From Nitratireductor alexandrii (GTDB lineage: Bacteria > Pseudomonadota > Alphaproteobacteria > Rhizobiales > Rhizobiaceae), in NCBI RefSeq assembly GCF_004000215.1, contig NZ_RBVY01000002.1, forward strand, positions 62,001 through 126,000: a stretch of 64,000 bases of DNA, written 5' to 3'. The notes below the pieces were generated by a model that saw nothing but the letters and a program-made list of their open reading frames with translations, did no database searches and had not been told where the DNA came from. Made by a program: the position numbers and the translations under genes. Of the stretch, positions 23,608-29,902 are shown piece after piece (position 1 is the stretch's first letter; each line of letters begins with the position of its first letter).

Positions 23608-24477
23608 TCAGGCGGCGCTTGCCGCCAGTTTTGCCGGCATGAGCCGTTTTGCTTCCTTGTGGATCATGGCGCGCAGCATGCCGGCGCCTTCGCAGTCCGG
23701 CACGTTGTCCGCCGCCTGGTCAACCAGGTCCAGAAGTCGTTTCAGGGCGCCTTCGACGCCCAGTTCCGCGACCAGATTGGGCCGGCCGTTCAGCCTGTCC
23801 TGGCCGACGGGCTTGCCCATGCTTCCGCTCTCGTCCATCGCGTCGTAGAGGTCGTCGGCGACCTGGTAGGCGGCACCCAGGGCATCGGCCAGAGCGTACC
23901 AGTCGAGCGGATTGCCTTCCGAAGACAGCGCGCCGGTGGAGACGGCGCCGGTGAAAAGCGATGCGGTTTTTGCGCGGTGATAGGCGGCGATATTGATTTT
24001 CGGTTCGCTTTCCCAGGCCTGGCCGGCGACCAGCCCGTAGGGCGAGCCGACAGCGTTGGCGACGGTGGAGATGAGGCGGGCGGTCAGGTGCGGCGCGTGC
24101 AGCGTTTCGCGGGCAATGGTTTCGAACGCGGCCACGATCAGGCCGTCTCCGACCAGAAGCGCGATTTCCTCGCCATACTCCTTATGGACGGAAGCCTTGC
24201 CGCGGCGGGTGGCGGCGTTGTCGAAACAGGGCAGGTCGTCATGAACCAGCGAGGCGCAATGCAGCAGTTCGATGGCGCTGGCCGAGGCTGTGGCGACGCG
24301 GGGGTTGCGATCGCCGCACGCCAGTGCGACGGCGAGGCAGAGGCGCGGCCGAATGCGCGCGCCGCCGGGAAAGACCGCGTAGCGCAACGCGCCGGCGAGT
24401 TTTTGCGGGCAGCCATTTGCGGTGGCGTAGCGGATGGCAGTTTGCATCCCGGTTTCGATGCGTTCCGACAGGTCCAT
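23608..24477 (-). CDS. crtE: Geranylgeranyl diphosphate synthase (CrtE)
   Basis: A 289-aa trans-prenyltransferase making GGPP for carotenoids and the bacteriochlorophyll tail. The first Asp-rich motif DDLPCFD is at residues 80-86, the second is ADDLYDAMD, and PGGARIRP is also present. I chose ATG 24477 because AGGGAG lies 7 bases upstream and the length matches the family. Starts at 24501 and 24534 would run into the regulatory sites and lack an SD. It is divergent from crtD. Confidence 0.94.
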   Translation of the reverse strand: MDLSERIETGMQTAIRYATANGCPQKLAGALRYAVFPGGARIRPRLCLAVALACGDRNPRVATASASAIELLHCASLVHDDLPCFDNAATRRGKASVHKEYGEEIALLVGDGLIVAAFETIARETLHAPHLTARLISTVANAVGSPYGLVAGQAWESEPKINIAAYHRAKTASLFTGAVSTGALSSEGNPLDWYALADALGAAYQVADDLYDAMDESGSMGKPVGQDRLNGRPNLVAELGVEGALKRLLDLVDQAADNVPDCEGAGMLRAMIHKEAKRLMPAKLAASAA

Positions 24478-24504
24478 GGGGCCGCTCCCTGTTTTTGACA
24501 TGGA

Positions 24505-24522
24505 TGTCAACTTTAATTGACG
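24505..24522. promoter_or_regulatory. PpsR/CrtJ-type box between crtE and crtD (crtE side)
   Basis: TGTCAACTTTAATTGACG: TGTCAA and TTGACG arms in TGT-N12-AC(G) arrangement, one base off the consensus. It lies 28 bp before the crtE ATG. Confidence 0.68.
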
Positions 24523-24528
24523 ATACAC

Positions 24529-24546
24529 TGTCAATATAAAGTGACG
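24529..24546. promoter_or_regulatory. PpsR/CrtJ-type box between crtE and crtD (crtD side)
   Basis: TGTCAATATAAAGTGACG, again TGT-N12-AC(G), 6 bp from the neighbouring box. The pair sits in the short divergent gap and could repress both crtEF and crtDC. Confidence 0.68.
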
Positions 24547-24579
24547 AAATGCGGGTAAATGTCAACGTCGGAGCGCTGC

Positions 24580-26163
24580 ATGCGAAGACGAGCACCGAAG
24601 CACAGGGTCGTGGTTGTCGGGGCCGGGATCGGCGGCATCGCGGCCGCCCTGAGGCTGGCTGCGGCCGGATGCTCGGTGCTGGTTCTGGAGGCCTCGGATG
24701 CGCCGGGCGGCAAGCTGCGCCAGGTGCGGGCCGGCGGGCGGATGTTCGACGCGGGTCCGACCGTCCTCACCATGAAATGGGTCTTCGACGATCTGTTGAA
24801 GGACTGCGGCACCTGCCTGGACGACGAACTGGCGCTGGAAAAGGCCGATCTGCTGGCGCGACATTACTGGCGGGACGGCGCCTGCCTCGATCTGCACGCG
24901 GACCCGGGCAGGAATGTCGAAGCCATTCGGGCTTTTGCCGGCGATCGCGAGGCGGAAGGCTTTCAGAGATTTGCCGCCGACAGCCGCCGGGTTTTCGATC
25001 TGCTGAAAACCACCTTCATCGACGCGACCCGCCCCAATCCGGTAAGCCTTTCCTGGCGGATCGGCATGACGAAGCCGGGCGCTCTGTTCGCCCTCAAACC
25101 CTTTTCCACGCTTTGGTCGGTTCTTGGCGACTATTTTTCGGATCCGCGTCTCAAGCAGCTCTTCGCCCGTTACGCCACCTATTGCGGTTCCTCGCCCTAT
25201 CTCGCCCCGGCGACCCTGATGCTGGTCGCGCATGTGGAGCAGACCGGTGTCTGGATCCCGAAAGACGGCATGCACGCCCTGGCGCGGCGGTTGGTTGATC
25301 TGGCTGCCGGTCTCGGCGTGGAAATTCGATACGCGGCCCGTGTCGAAACCATCGTGACGGCTGCAGGCGGGACGCGCGTTGCCGGTGTCAGCCTGTCGGG
25401 TGGAGAAACCGTCCCGGCCGAGCAGGTGGTCTTCAACGGCGATGTGGCCGCCTTGGCGCAGCTTCTCGGGCGGCCGGAAAGACCGCGTAGAGGTGGCAAT
25501 CCCGCTCAACGGTCCCAATCCGCGCTGGTCGTCTGCGCTCCGGCGCGGCCGCAGGGGGTGCCGCTTGCCCACCATACGGTGTTTTTTTCCGATGCCTATG
25601 AAGCCGAGTTCGACGCCGTTTTCGAACGGCGGGCGCCACCGGACGACCCGACGGTTTACGTCTGCGCGCAGGACCGTACCGGCGGCGGTGTCGCAGGGCC
25701 GGCCGCCGCGACGGCCGAGCGCATCTACTGTTTGATGAACCTGCCGGCGGACGGCGACCGGCACGACTATTCCGAAAGCGAGTTGGATCGATGCCTGACA
25801 GCGATGGACCGCCGGCTGGCGGCAAACGGATTGGTGCTGCGACGCAACCGGCAGGCCCAGGTTCTGAGCGCGCCGGACCTTTTCGATCGTCTCTATCCGG
25901 CGACGGGCGGCGCCCTTTACGGCCGGGCATCGCACGGCTGGATGGCCTCGTTCAACCGTCCGGGCGCCCGCGCTGCGTTGCAGGGGCTGTACCTGGCAGG
26001 CGGCAGCGTCCACCCGGGGCCGGGCGTGCCGATGGCGGCGCTGTCGGGCAAGATCGCGGCCGACTGCCTGTTGGCCGACCTTGCTTCGACCGGCCGGTTC
26101 CGCCCGGCGGCTACTGCTGGTGGTATGCGGACGCGACCAGCGACTGCGGACAGTTCGCGCTGA
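24580..26163 (+). CDS. crtD: 1-hydroxycarotenoid/methoxyneurosporene 3,4-desaturase (CrtD)
   Basis: A 527-aa FAD-dependent phytoene-desaturase-family enzyme introducing the C3,4 double bond into hydroxylated acyclic carotenoids. It has the N-terminal dinucleotide fold VVVVGAGIGGIAAALRLAAAG and LEASDAPGGKLRQ, and the C-terminal signature YLAGGSVHPGPGVPMAALSGK. I prefer ATG 24580 because GGAG lies 6 bases upstream; ATG 24559 would add seven residues. The C-terminal 35 residues overlap the open frame of crtC. Confidence 0.93.
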   Translation: MRRRAPKHRVVVVGAGIGGIAAALRLAAAGCSVLVLEASDAPGGKLRQVRAGGRMFDAGPTVLTMKWVFDDLLKDCGTCLDDELALEKADLLARHYWRDGACLDLHADPGRNVEAIRAFAGDREAEGFQRFAADSRRVFDLLKTTFIDATRPNPVSLSWRIGMTKPGALFALKPFSTLWSVLGDYFSDPRLKQLFARYATYCGSSPYLAPATLMLVAHVEQTGVWIPKDGMHALARRLVDLAAGLGVEIRYAARVETIVTAAGGTRVAGVSLSGGETVPAEQVVFNGDVAALAQLLGRPERPRRGGNPAQRSQSALVVCAPARPQGVPLAHHTVFFSDAYEAEFDAVFERRAPPDDPTVYVCAQDRTGGGVAGPAAATAERIYCLMNLPADGDRHDYSESELDRCLTAMDRRLAANGLVLRRNRQAQVLSAPDLFDRLYPATGGALYGRASHGWMASFNRPGARAALQGLYLAGGSVHPGPGVPMAALSGKIAADCLLADLASTGRFRPAATAGGMRTRPATADSSR

Positions 26164-27029
26164 CGGTGATTGCCTTTATCGGTTCGGTATTCTCGCCCTA
26201 TTATCACTGGGCCGGGCGTAAGGCTCCGCAGGATCACGTCGCGTTCAATGTCGCCTTGTACCGGCCTGGCGGGAACGGTTGGGCGATGACGGAACGCGGG
26301 CGCAAAAGTCTTTTGCGGACGCCGCAGAGACTGTGCATCGGCAACAGCCGCCTCGACTATGCCAAGGACGGCGACGGGCTTGAGATCCAGTTCGACGAGA
26401 TGGCGCTGCCCTGGCCCGGGCAGCGCCTGCTGCCGACGCGCATCTCGGGAGCGATCCGCATTGAGCCGGAAATACGAAACCATGTCGTCATCGAGCTCGA
26501 TCCGCACGGGCATCACCGCTGGTGGCCGGTCTTTCCGCGGGCCAGGATCAGCGTTGAAAGCGATTTCTTTCCCGGTGGCGGCTGGCAAGGCGAGGCCTAT
26601 CACGACTTCAACGCGGGTGACCGACCCCTCGAAACCGACTTTGACGGCTGGGACTGGGCACGCGGGCAGGTTGGGTCCGAGGCGGCCGCGATCCTCTACG
26701 ATGCGGTTTTGAAGGACGGCCGACGGCGTACCCTTGGCCTGTCTTTTTCGACCGATGGCACGGCTGCCGACTTTACGCCGCCGCCGCGTCACCCGCTTCC
26801 ACGCGGCCTGTGGGGCGTTGGCGGCGGAATCGGCTGTGACGCCGGGGCTTTGCCGCAGCTGTTGTGCAGGCTGGAGGACACGCCTTTTTACAGCCGCGCG
26901 CTCGTGCGCACGTCGCTTGAGGGCGTGCCGGTGACCATGGTTCACGAAGCGCTGAACTGCAGGCGGCTGGCCAATCCAATGGTCCGGCTGATGTTGCCCT
27001 TCCGCATGCCGCGTCGGACTTCGGCCTAG
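25791..27029 (+). CDS. crtC: Hydroxyneurosporene synthase / carotenoid 1,2-hydratase (CrtC)
   Basis: CrtC adds water to the C1,2 double bond of neurosporene/lycopene-type carotenoids. The recognisable protein begins near 26064 with GRPCFDRPVPPGGYCWWYAD and TVIAFIGSVFSPYYHWA, and continues to MVHEALNCRRL at the end. No ATG, GTG or TTG occurs in frame near that point: the only upstream conventional start is the ATG at 25791, which would add about 90 non-CrtC residues translated through crtD in another frame. The real start may be non-canonical or a sequencing error may be present, so the 5' boundary is uncertain. It converges with the 50-aa ORF; the stops overlap. Confidence 0.88.
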   Translation: MPDSDGPPAGGKRIGAATQPAGPGSERAGPFRSSLSGDGRRPLRPGIARLDGLVQPSGRPRCVAGAVPGRRQRPPGAGRADGGAVGQDRGRLPVGRPCFDRPVPPGGYCWWYADATSDCGQFALTVIAFIGSVFSPYYHWAGRKAPQDHVAFNVALYRPGGNGWAMTERGRKSLLRTPQRLCIGNSRLDYAKDGDGLEIQFDEMALPWPGQRLLPTRISGAIRIEPEIRNHVVIELDPHGHHRWWPVFPRARISVESDFFPGGGWQGEAYHDFNAGDRPLETDFDGWDWARGQVGSEAAAILYDAVLKDGRRRTLGLSFSTDGTAADFTPPPRHPLPRGLWGVGGGIGCDAGALPQLLCRLEDTPFYSRALVRTSLEGVPVTMVHEALNCRRLANPMVRLMLPFRMPRRTSA

Positions 27030-27178
27030 TCGGTTTTCTTGTCCGCCTGCCGTTGCCGTTCGCGGGCGCGGGTCTTGTCGCGCGCCTTTTTCAGGTCATG
27101 CCGCTGCCAGAGGTAAAAGGCGACGGCAAGGCCGAAAACCAGGGCCACTTCGATCAGGCCGAAATAAGCCTCAAACAA
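27026..27178 (-). CDS. 50-aa membrane microprotein downstream of crtB
   Basis: A short ORF starting at TTG 27178, overlapping the last codons of crtB in another frame. It encodes MFEAYFGLIEVALVFGLAVA, then FYLWQRHDL, followed by a highly charged tail rich in Lys, Arg, Asp and Glu. One transmembrane helix (about residues 5-24) is clear. Its stop overlaps the crtC stop on the opposite strand. The composition is that of a real protein, and I recall similar small ORFs beside crtB in other alphaproteobacterial photosynthesis clusters, although I could not check that here. Function unknown; a small subunit or anchor for carotenoid or assembly enzymes is a guess. Confidence 0.72.
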   Translation of the reverse strand: MFEAYFGLIEVALVFGLAVAFYLWQRHDLKKARDKTRARERQRQADKKTD

Positions 27179-28331
27179 GGCCGGACGCTTTCTCCCGGGC
27201 CTCGAGGCGGCGGAACCGCCGCTCGTCTCGGGTCTGTGCCTGGAGCCGCATGATGATGGTCAGGAAGCGGCCCGGATCGGCGCGATCGGCCGCTATTCGC
27301 GACGGCGCGCGCGAAAACGCGTCCGCCGCCGCGGCGACCAGTTCGGCCGCCGCTGGATCCGCGGCGGCGCCCAGCAGCCTTGCCGACGAGGTCGGGCCGC
27401 TCGGGGCCGGCCCTTGGGCCCGCAGCATCAGCGCAAGCTTTCCGCCGAGCTTGATATGCGCGCGGCGGGAGACGCTGTCATAGCCGTTGGCGGCGATTGC
27501 GGCCCCGATTTCCTCGTAAACCAGTGCCGCCGTGCGAATGGCCGGGCGGCATCTGGCCGGCAGAGCCGCGATCCCGGCATGACCCAGCCGGTAATGGTGC
27601 GCCGCTTCCCCGACGAGGCGCTGCACCACCTCGCCGAGCGCCGGCGAGAACCGGGGAGCCCGCAGGAAACGCTCCGCATCCACACCCGCAGCCTCGAGCC
27701 AGTCGGCGGGCAGATAAAGCCGGCCAAGGCGCGCATCCGCGCCGACATCGCGGGCAATGTTGGTCAGTTGCATCGCGATGCCGAGATCGGCCGCGCGCGC
27801 CAGGGCTTGCCTGTCGCCGGTTCGCATGACCAGCGCCATCATCAGGCCGACGGTCGAGGCGACGCGGGTCGCGTAGGTCTTGACCTCGGCGATCGTCCGG
27901 TAGCGCCGGTTGGCGATGTCCATGGCAAAGCCGTCCAGCAGTGCCAACGGCACGGTTTTGGGGATCGCATAGGCCGCCACGGTGCGCGCGAAGGCCCGGT
28001 CGCAGGCATAGGCGGCCGGCGTACCGCGATAGATCAGGTCGAGCCGGACGCGCAGCCGGTTCAGTGCCAGCCGGTTCGCGCGCGGATCGTCGATCAGGTC
28101 GTCGGCATGGCGGCAGAACGCGTAGAGCGCCTGAGCGGCCTGACGGGTTTCCCGTGGCAGGATCATGGAGGCCAGGTGAAAGGATTTCGAGCCTTTGCGG
28201 ATAGCTGCCGCACAGGCGCCGAGATCCGTTTGGTGCCCGCAAAACCCGTAAGCCTGGCCGCGGGACCAGGCAGGCCCCGATGGCGCGGGCGCCGCGGCGC
28301 CCTCGAGCCGGCCCGTGTCGATCGCGCTCAT
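27171..28331 (-). CDS. crtB: 15-cis-phytoene synthase (CrtB)
   Basis: A 386-aa squalene/phytoene synthase family enzyme joining two GGPP to phytoene. The Asp-rich motifs are HADDLIDD (residues 75-82) and NIARDVGADARLGRLYLP. Start MSAIDTGRLEG at 28331 overlaps the crtI stop (ATGA); the long in-frame region upstream is crtI shadow. The last 60 residues are Ala- and Arg-rich. Confidence 0.95.
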   Translation of the reverse strand: MSAIDTGRLEGAAAPAPSGPAWSRGQAYGFCGHQTDLGACAAAIRKGSKSFHLASMILPRETRQAAQALYAFCRHADDLIDDPRANRLALNRLRVRLDLIYRGTPAAYACDRAFARTVAAYAIPKTVPLALLDGFAMDIANRRYRTIAEVKTYATRVASTVGLMMALVMRTGDRQALARAADLGIAMQLTNIARDVGADARLGRLYLPADWLEAAGVDAERFLRAPRFSPALGEVVQRLVGEAAHHYRLGHAGIAALPARCRPAIRTAALVYEEIGAAIAANGYDSVSRRAHIKLGGKLALMLRAQGPAPSGPTSSARLLGAAADPAAAELVAAAADAFSRAPSRIAADRADPGRFLTIIMRLQAQTRDERRFRRLEAREKASGLV

Positions 28332-29902
28332 GGTCGTCCTCTGCGTTGCGGCCCGGGCTGCGCGGACGCGGCGAACCGCGCCGGGTCCGGCGCGAGATCG
28401 GCGACGATCCGCGCGGAGCAGACCACCCCGGGCAGGCCCGCGCCGGGATGGGTTCCGGCGCCGCACAGATAGAGGTTGTCGAGTTCCTCGCTCTTGTTGT
28501 GCGGGCGAAACCACGCGCTTTGAAACAGCTTGGGTTCGAGCGAAAAGGCGGCGCCTTGCCATGAATGCAGACGGTCGCGGAAATCGACCGGGGTCGTGAT
28601 GCGCGATGTGACGATATGCCGGCGCAGATCGGGCAGCAGCGTTTCTTCCAGGCGCGCGGCGATCCGGTCGCGATAGGCCAGTGCCTTTTCGCTCCAGTCG
28701 GTGGTGCCGGCGAGATTGGGCACTGGGCTCAGCACGTAGAACGCGTCGCAGCCCTTCGGGGCCACCGAGGGGTCGTTTGCGGAAGGGCGATGCAGATAAA
28801 GGCTGAAATCGCGGGCAAGCCGCTTGCTGCCGAAAATATCGTTCAACAGGCCGCGATAACGCGGTCCGAAAAGCATGGTGTGGTGACCGACATCGTCGAA
28901 ACGGCGGTCGGTGCCGAAATACCAGACGAACAGGCTCATGGAATAGTCGCTGCGGCGGATCTTTTTGTCCGTCCAGCGCTTGCGCGGCAGGTTTTTCAGC
29001 AGCCGGCCATAGGTCACGGCGGGATCGCAGTTCGACACGACGATATCGGCGGCGACCGTTTCACCGCCGGCCAGACGGACGCCGGTCGCGTTGCGTCCGC
29101 TCGTCAGGATGGTTTCGACCGTTTGCCCGAGACGGATCGTGCCGCCGTTGCGCCTGACGAGACCGGCCATGCCGTCGACCAGCGCGTTGGTGCCGCCCAG
29201 GACGTAATGGACGCCGTGCTTGCTCTCCAGATGCGCGATCAGACAGTAGAACGACGTTGCCGTGAACGGATTGCCGCCGATAAGCAGCGGATGGAAGGAA
29301 AAGACGGTTCGCAGTTTGGGATGCCGGAAATGCCGCGAAACCACCGAATAGACCGAGCGGTAGCCGCCGAGCCGCACGAGCTTGGCAAGCGCGCCGGCGG
29401 TGAAGAACTTGCTGTGAAACGGCCGGTCGGCGAACCGCAGGAAGGCGATGTCGTAGATGCGCCGGCTTTCCGCCATGAAACTGCGGTAGCCGGCGACATC
29501 CTCCGGTGAGATCTTCCCGATCTCGGCTTCCATCGCCGCTCGGTCGCCGCAATAGCTGAACACCGTGCCGTCGTCGAAGCGGATTTTGTAGAACGGGGTG
29601 TTGGGTCGGATATCGAGATCGTCCTTCAGGGACGCGCCGCAATCGGCCCATAATTGTTCGAACAGCCAGGGAGCGGTGATGATGGTCGGGCCGGCATCGA
29701 AGGTGAAGCCGTCCTGCCGGTAGGCATAGGCGCGTCCGCCAGGCGCGTCGAGCGGGTCGAATATGGTGACGCGGTAGCCGCGCGCCGCCAGAAGCGCGCC
29801 GGCCGCGAGGCCGCCGACGCCGGCGCCGATGACGACGGCATGGGGCTTGTCCCGCGCCCCGGGGGAGGAAGCGCTGCTGGCGAAGCGTTGGGCGATGTTC
29901 AT
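28328..29902 (-). CDS. crtI: Phytoene desaturase (CrtI)
   Basis: A 524-aa FAD-dependent desaturase converting phytoene to neurosporene or lycopene; the number of steps cannot be told from sequence alone. FAD-binding VVIGAGVGGLAAGALLAARG is followed by DAPGGRAYAYRQDGFTFDAGPT, and the C-terminal motif is LYLCGAGTHPGAGLPGVV. ATG 29902 overlaps the bchO TGA. Because CrtC, CrtD and CrtF are present but crtA is not, a spirilloxanthin-type end product is the simplest reading. Confidence 0.95.
   Translation of the reverse strand: MNIAQRFASSASSPGARDKPHAVVIGAGVGGLAAGALLAARGYRVTIFDPLDAPGGRAYAYRQDGFTFDAGPTIITAPWLFEQLWADCGASLKDDLDIRPNTPFYKIRFDDGTVFSYCGDRAAMEAEIGKISPEDVAGYRSFMAESRRIYDIAFLRFADRPFHSKFFTAGALAKLVRLGGYRSVYSVVSRHFRHPKLRTVFSFHPLLIGGNPFTATSFYCLIAHLESKHGVHYVLGGTNALVDGMAGLVRRNGGTIRLGQTVETILTSGRNATGVRLAGGETVAADIVVSNCDPAVTYGRLLKNLPRKRWTDKKIRRSDYSMSLFVWYFGTDRRFDDVGHHTMLFGPRYRGLLNDIFGSKRLARDFSLYLHRPSANDPSVAPKGCDAFYVLSPVPNLAGTTDWSEKALAYRDRIAARLEETLLPDLRRHIVTSRITTPVDFRDRLHSWQGAAFSLEPKLFQSAWFRPHNKSEELDNLYLCGAGTHPGAGLPGVVCSARIVADLAPDPARFAASAQPGPQRRGRP

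Follow-up and report, generated by a model that had tools for sequence, protein, structure and literature searches.

An open reading frame on the minus strand at 27026–27178, within a carotenoid gene block of Nitratireductor alexandrii, encodes an unnamed membrane microprotein that is under selection and recurs as a typical component of photosynthesis clusters in many Alphaproteobacteria; we consider it virtually certain that this frame is a real gene. It lies in a window of 64,000 nucleotides (the whole stretch of DNA that was analysed), to which all coordinates refer. Purple-bacterial carotenoid genes have been studied for decades, yet for this companion gene, detected in 118 of 145 crtC-bearing genomes, the window protein matched no Pfam or NCBIfam family above cut-off. 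It may bear on how the soluble phytoene synthase passes its product into the membrane and on the control of pigment flow in purple bacteria without PufQ, and it would offer a clear example of a membrane microprotein, probably translationally coupled, of the kind that gene finders with a length cut-off can miss. The features of the window on which the analysis rests are the following:

27026..27178, minus strand: microprotein gene, TTG start, 50 aa, one predicted transmembrane helix and a basic C-terminal tail
27171..27178, minus strand: overlap of microprotein start and crtB stop, 8 nt, TTGTTTGA
27026..27029, no strand assigned: CTAG, spanning the two convergent stop codons with the bases common to both
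27171..28331, minus strand: crtB, phytoene synthase, purple-bacterial type (Pfam SQS_PSY, 2.6e-74)
26106..27029, plus strand, start approximate: crtC, carotenoid 1,2-hydratase (NF045922, 249.2 bits, under the cut-off of 400)
24559..26163, plus strand: crtD, 1-hydroxycarotenoid 3,4-desaturase (NF045637, 633.3 bits, over the cut-off of 580)
28328..29890, minus strand, start approximate: crtI, phytoene desaturase family (TIGR02734, 604.4 bits, over the cut-off)
23608..24534, minus strand: crtE-like polyprenyl synthetase (Pfam polyprenyl_synt, 1.7e-42)

The best NCBIfam row for crtB was NF045921 at 335.5 bits, below the model cut-off of 500, and crtC returned no Pfam row; judged by rank and E-value, the identities assigned to both genes are clear despite their sub-cut-off NCBIfam scores. 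For the polyprenyl synthetase, the best NCBIfam rows were farnesyl diphosphate synthase (NF045485, 185.9 bits) and CrtE (NF045685, 151.7 bits), both sub-cut-off, and we call the gene crtE-like because of its position in the cluster.

The microprotein has the sequence MFEAYFGLIEVALVFGLAVAFYLWQRHDLKKARDKTRARERQRQADKKTD (translation of 27026..27178, minus strand). Its TTG start codon occupies positions 27178-27176 and the TGA stop codon of crtB positions 27173-27171, and its own TAG (27028-27026) meets the TAG of crtC (27027-27029). The sequence-only reading had described a TTG-started frame that overlaps the end of crtB and shares stop-codon bases with convergent crtC, and this description is exact, the overlap measuring 8 nt and the two stop codons having two bases in common. 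That reading had also expected a membrane microprotein with one helix and a charged tail; AlphaFold2 predicts for the window protein a single helix spanning residues 2-49 (pLDDT 92.7), and the tail is basic.

These properties recur in the family, for which 101 members were reduced to 81 non-redundant sequences and to 61 in the alignment, start codons being picked by rule (L009 and L090, with no start in range, were dropped). The hallmarks are a Glu, then 13 uncharged residues, a W-Q/E pair and a basic tail: alignment position 10 is Glu in 54 of the 61 rows, position 24 is Trp in 45, position 25 is Gln or Glu in 60, and position 31 is Arg or Lys in 58. The window protein follows this pattern with E10, W24 and Q25. 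Among family members the helix core holds no charged residue at any of 793 positions, and the mean number of Lys plus Arg is 0.08 ahead of the Glu against 7.5 past the Trp. Based on this skew and the positive-inside rule, the microprotein, a single-pass inner-membrane protein, probably has its N-terminus outside and its basic C-terminus inside.

The junction with crtB suggests how the protein is made. An overlap of start and stop codons is the usual mark of translational coupling, and where the crtB stop was located (86 members) it is overlapped by 8 nt in 13 cases and by 4 nt in 18. An SD-like motif is present in 47 of 101 members; the window gene carries none within the tested distance upstream of its start, so that coupling would fit better than independent initiation. 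We therefore consider it likely that translation of the microprotein is coupled to that of crtB at the 8-nt overlap.

Selection on the frame also speaks for a coding gene. Pooled over 34 pairs of relatives, pS was 0.345 and pN 0.111, and pairwise dN/dS ranged from 0 to 0.79 (one pair being saturated), with 0.14 for the window against its relative L147; the dN/dS comparison proposed in the sequence-only reading came out on the side of a gene. In 16 chosen pairs taken from those 34, pN/pS was 0.22 in frame; the two alternative sense frames gave 1.52 and 2.18, and the antisense frames 1.28, 0.39 and 2.26, the value of 0.39 belonging to the frame whose wobble base coincides. Among 45,242 ORFs from Markov-shuffled loci, the best profile E-value was 0.54. 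The earlier reading called the composition of the ORF far from random; relatives in place, purifying selection on the frame and the shuffled-loci null together bear this out, indicating that it did not arise by chance.

Genomic controls point in the same direction. Of 63 control genomes for which no crtC match was listed (the crtC status being assumed for many of them), 3 gave a hit at E≤0.01, all weak (0.002-0.007), and no convincing copy was found. These three hits were rejected, since two lie inside large unrelated frames and one in an open frame of 42 residues. In a sample of 142 genomes of the class, 15 passed E≤0.01: all ten hits at E<1e-8 are in crtC-listed genomes, which leaves five weak ones (1e-4 to 0.009), including G865, which has crtC, and G900, for which none is listed.

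The distribution of the microprotein was followed through loci gathered by a CrtC model, which hit 49 of the 394 genomes screened from the family, 74 of 397 from the order and 26 of 385 from the class; after removal of repeats, the survey set comprised 145 crtC genomes with 146 loci. Loci from one genus, e.g. L045, L046 and L048, are not independent in these counts. A search with the single protein in 61 genomes returned the window's own copy and one relative only, and the profile then used was more sensitive. The tblastn check named in the sequence-only reading found relatives beside crtC in part of the survey loci, the closest being L147 and L101, both from other families, and most crtB-crtC gaps of up to 330 nt hold a similar one-helix ORF. 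With the profile, 97 of the 146 loci showed a member no more than 400 nt from the crtC stop, all convergent to crtC, and none on the crtC strand within that distance. A lack of conservation at the locus, or stop codons in relatives, had been set beforehand as the outcome on which the proposal would fail, and a fixed place in the carotenoid block had been claimed; the proposal passed this test, and the 97 loci agree with the claimed place.

The tight convergence is itself open to another explanation, namely that the overlapping 3' ends of crtB and crtC serve antisense or termination control as a regulatory element and that the ORF is incidental. In 63 of the 97 loci the stop codons of the member and of crtC do lie 20 nt or less apart, with the window's spacing (-3) in 16 of the 97. 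However, selection acts at the amino-acid level on the microprotein frame, which largely refutes this reading, and members away from crtC keep their sequence; we consider a purely regulatory element extremely improbable.

Whole-genome profile searches of the other 48 crtC genomes yielded 20 more matches at E≤0.01, of which 16 adjoin crtB, tspO, bchO or dxs; of the remaining four, two have other genes around them (G1094 and G1015) and two stand behind a DUF3422-like gene (G641 and G657). Three rows of this search, G422, G528 and G464, are weaker (E 2.1e-6 to 4.4e-5). Six of the 20 best rows cross one stop codon (G874, G655, G615, G798, G422 and G865): a stop-bounded ORF that passes E 1e-3 exists in G874, G615, G798 and G422, and via L118 in G655, and there is none in G865, a weak match (E 0.009) behind crtB-tspO. 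A motif screen of the 38 loci without a copy added a divergent copy beside dxs and crtC in L198 (E 0.026); L207, from the same screen, was judged a chance match. The microprotein was thereby detected in the 118 crtC genomes given above, two weak matches included: 116 pass E 1e-3 as stop-bounded ORFs, and G865 and L198 fail. By a hand count from family labels, about 38 families are spanned.

No copy was detected in 27 of the 145 crtC genomes, 17 of them in the window's own family. Some of these 27 may be misses, since in large genomes only part of the first-look candidates was scored (up to 140 in the 48-genome search and 47 in the class sample). Of the 48 crtC genomes that lack an adjacent copy, 47 have reaction-centre genes, and so do 26 of the 27 in which no copy at all was detected; these 26, together with six copy-less genomes that carry a purple-type crtB, indicate that the microprotein is dispensable somewhere. 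In the window's own genus, three genomes (G001, G002 and G003) have neither a crtC match nor the microprotein, and the genus is thus uneven in its possession of the photosynthesis cluster.

Variation within the family was also observed. Tandem pairs of family-like ORFs stand beside crtC or crtB in L112, L062 (the second at E 0.018), L057, L108 and L118. The second copy of L112 and the single copies of L198 and L065 form an apparent divergent subgroup with the pattern LAFIEL..VLAF..GW.ILE...

The gene neighbourhood was classified 700 nt upstream and 900 nt downstream of the 116 members at E≤1e-3. By nearest classified neighbours, the order is crtB > microprotein >< crtC in 73 of the 116 and tspO > microprotein >< crtC in 16; other upstream neighbours are bchO (7), dxs (3) and a DUF3422-like gene (3). 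Where no crtC is nearby, the microprotein follows crtB in 6 cases and tspO in 3. A further 5 of the 116 have an unclassified upstream gene. All but two of the 116, which are unclassified, have one or more neighbours of the crt, tspO, bch, dxs or DUF3422-like classes (114 members), and where crtB and crtC are far apart the microprotein is found with either. The placement between crtB and crtC given in the sequence-only reading therefore stands for the window and does not extend to those relatives that have tspO, bchO, dxs or a DUF3422-like gene upstream. In L161, L171 and one crtC locus, the microprotein lies behind a gene that we take to be DUF3422-like, a further possible functional link; the gene after it in L161 is presumably bchG-like.

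Two good members of the microprotein family, both in f67 genomes (L158 in G1094 and L160 in G1015), stand beside metabolic or transporter genes, with crtC on another contig. Small one-helix look-alikes also occur outside photosynthesis clusters, as a pair in G900 (L225/L229), behind what we take to be a glcF-like gene, and singly in G798 (L179), which may point to a broader class of microproteins of this kind. The protein might accordingly have another membrane role and merely hitchhike in the photosynthesis cluster, as the position of the two f67 members and the two look-alikes of G900 (E 1e-4, no crtC match listed) would allow. Against this, the 63 genomes without a listed crtC hold no convincing copy and the ten strongest hits of the class sample all fall in crtC-listed genomes, and we regard hitchhiking as improbable.

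A single-protein search of plasmids gave matches in 18 records, up to an E-value of 10 and for the most part by chance, among which the one from Novosphingobium proved real; it is the one case among 11 crtC-bearing plasmid records with the microprotein near crtC. This relative (WP_062786511.1, Novosphingobium capsulatum; profile E 6e-19) is convergent to crtC, lies behind bchO and is annotated as a hypothetical protein. The claim that the gene had been overlooked is too broad in that this relative is annotated. The other 10 records (seven from the Roseobacter clade, Roseinatronobacter, Methylobacterium and Thiodictyon) showed no copy in the 3-4 kb flanks of crtC that were read, a gammaproteobacterial plasmid (4 kb) among them.

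CrtB scores fall on two sides of a gap, the upper of which we label purple type. In the 27 genomes without the microprotein, 6 have a purple-type CrtB (375 bits or more) and 21 a weaker phytoene synthase (130.7-231.5 bits), mostly far from crtC or on another contig. Where the microprotein is present, 63 genomes were tested: CrtB is of the purple type (335 bits or more) in 49 and scores lower (242 bits or less) in 14, a proportion of 14/63 that overstates the exceptions, because the tested set deliberately includes genomes without a known adjacent crtB. The association (49/63 vs 6/27) has a Fisher p of 1.1e-6 in a chosen sample uncorrected for phylogeny. No phytoene-synthase match was found in 17 tested genomes for which crtC is not listed. 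The microprotein thus tends to be lost along with the purple-type crtB, but the 14 exceptions show that it can remain. Repeated replacement of the purple-type crtB is possible, given the 21 and 14 genomes with the lower-scoring type, mostly located away from crtC.

A pigment role would fit this co-occurrence with phototrophy and with purple-type CrtB. Our tentative proposal, which we favour with somewhat less than even confidence, is that the microprotein serves the early steps of carotenoid synthesis as a small anchor or scaffold whose production keeps pace with that of CrtB. Termination-reinitiation at the 8-nt overlap would keep the two products in step; the helix Glu and the W-Q/E pair would pack against a membrane partner; and on the cytoplasmic side the basic part of the helix would keep CrtB and perhaps CrtI, or the lipophilic products of these enzymes, close to the membrane, from where carotenoid could reach CrtC/CrtD and the photosystem. 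Counting against such a scaffold, the 14 of 63 microprotein genomes with only a lower-scoring CrtB imply that the purple type is not required, and several members follow bchO, dxs or a DUF3422-like gene and not crtB; the 27 crtC genomes without a detected copy and the missing SD-like motif of the window gene weigh on the same side.

Known families were searched for a match. The window protein gave nothing above cut-off in Pfam or NCBIfam, and the 61 members gave weak rows only, of which MraZ, F0F1 subunit c, COX4 and similar entries were rejected as composition matches. In the PDB sequence file, which excludes chains made solely of unknown residues, phmmer with the single protein found no match and the profile returned only two chance-level ribosomal-protein matches (E 1.8-1.9); Foldseek found none. 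The sole genome-contig locus matched by the 50-aa query, in a Chloroflexi MAG, was rejected as a chance match, because it falls inside a protein of 245 residues that has several hydrophobic segments. No description of the microprotein gene was found in the open-access literature searched; the cluster maps in the portion consulted of PMC3176799 show hypothetical genes and do not name it. Two genes considered as possible counterparts in model species were set aside: RSP_0268, for which no mention was found in the open-access literature searched, and RPA1514, which is HemF according to excerpts of PMC13289028, PMC12844201 and PMC6974649.

Another small membrane protein, TspO/MBR, is found between crtB and crtC, but it is encoded by a separate gene of about 155 aa, and where tspO co-occurs the usual order is crtB > tspO > microprotein >< crtC. 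The Novosphingobium protein WP_062786511.1 belongs to the same family as the window protein and differs in having bchO, not crtB, upstream. CcmD is likewise a small single-helix protein, and as heme exporter protein D (PF04995) it is the nearest weak resemblance, seen in 8 of 61 members at E≤0.1 with best member E-values of 5.6e-4 in Pfam and 8.5e-4 in NCBIfam (judged by E-value). The window protein itself has no CcmD row in either database, and the ccmD gene belongs to a cytochrome c maturation operon, whereas the window gene lies at crtB/crtC (ccm genes were outside the neighbour classes scored).

Protein-Z, protein-Y and PufX of the Rhodobacter sphaeroides RC-LH1 are also small membrane polypeptides tied to photosynthesis, and the microprotein could, like them, be a minor single-helix subunit or assembly factor of RC-LH1 or of LH2, its gene sitting in the carotenoid block since LH1 incorporates carotenoids. 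A single helix of suitable size and the co-occurrence with phototrophy agree with this, as does the precedent of protein-Z, a single-helix RC-LH1 polypeptide whose gene was misannotated in the genome (PMC8652583, in the sections available). The genes of these polypeptides, however, occupy another genomic place, and neither phmmer nor the profile matched the microprotein to solved chains of the known extra subunits (PufX, protein-Y, protein-Z, W and gamma). No convincing PDB sequence or fold match appeared, despite the thirteen unique RC-LH1 structures counted by a 2023 review (PMC10214105, in excerpt), and the neighbours that could be classified belong to the crt, bch, tspO, dxs and DUF3422-like classes, puf and puh being outside the classes scored. 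We judge a subunit role unlikely, if still a credible contender.

PufQ (PF05398) is likewise a small, single-helix protein of the photosynthesis cluster, with a C-terminus predicted to be cytoplasmic; according to the available part of PMC5725709, it co-purifies with ferrochelatase and carotenoid and is absent from some purple bacteria. The microprotein might therefore act as a PufQ-like regulator of pigment flux that binds a biosynthetic enzyme and shifts the flow among carotenoid, bacteriochlorophyll and haem. Besides the similar architecture, with one helix and a cytoplasmic C-terminus, this reading can draw on bchO and bchG among the neighbours (the latter if, as we presume, the gene is rightly so named) and on the distribution of PufQ, which scored above cut-off in 3 of 80 genomes: 3/24 without the microprotein against 0/55 with it (p 0.026), and 0/1 without crtC. 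Yet PufQ, too, went unmatched in 21 of those 24 microprotein-free genomes, the three PufQ genomes may represent one Rhodobacter-type lineage, and G165 has the microprotein together with a sub-threshold PufQ-like hit (E 0.0086). Furthermore, no PufQ row appeared in Pfam for the window protein or among 25 of 27 families listed for the members, and the window genome holds no PF05398 match above cut-off. We think such a regulator unlikely, and similarly doubtful is the broader interpretation in which the microprotein would be a standard photosynthesis part in most alphaproteobacterial phototrophs outside the Rhodobacter/Roseobacter type, a PufQ counterpart that keeps the enzymes of carotenoid and perhaps bacteriochlorophyll synthesis together, passes pigment on to the photosystem and was missed since the best-studied models lack it. 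The two proteins also differ in the place of their genes, that of PufQ sitting in the puf operon and that of the microprotein between crtB and crtC.
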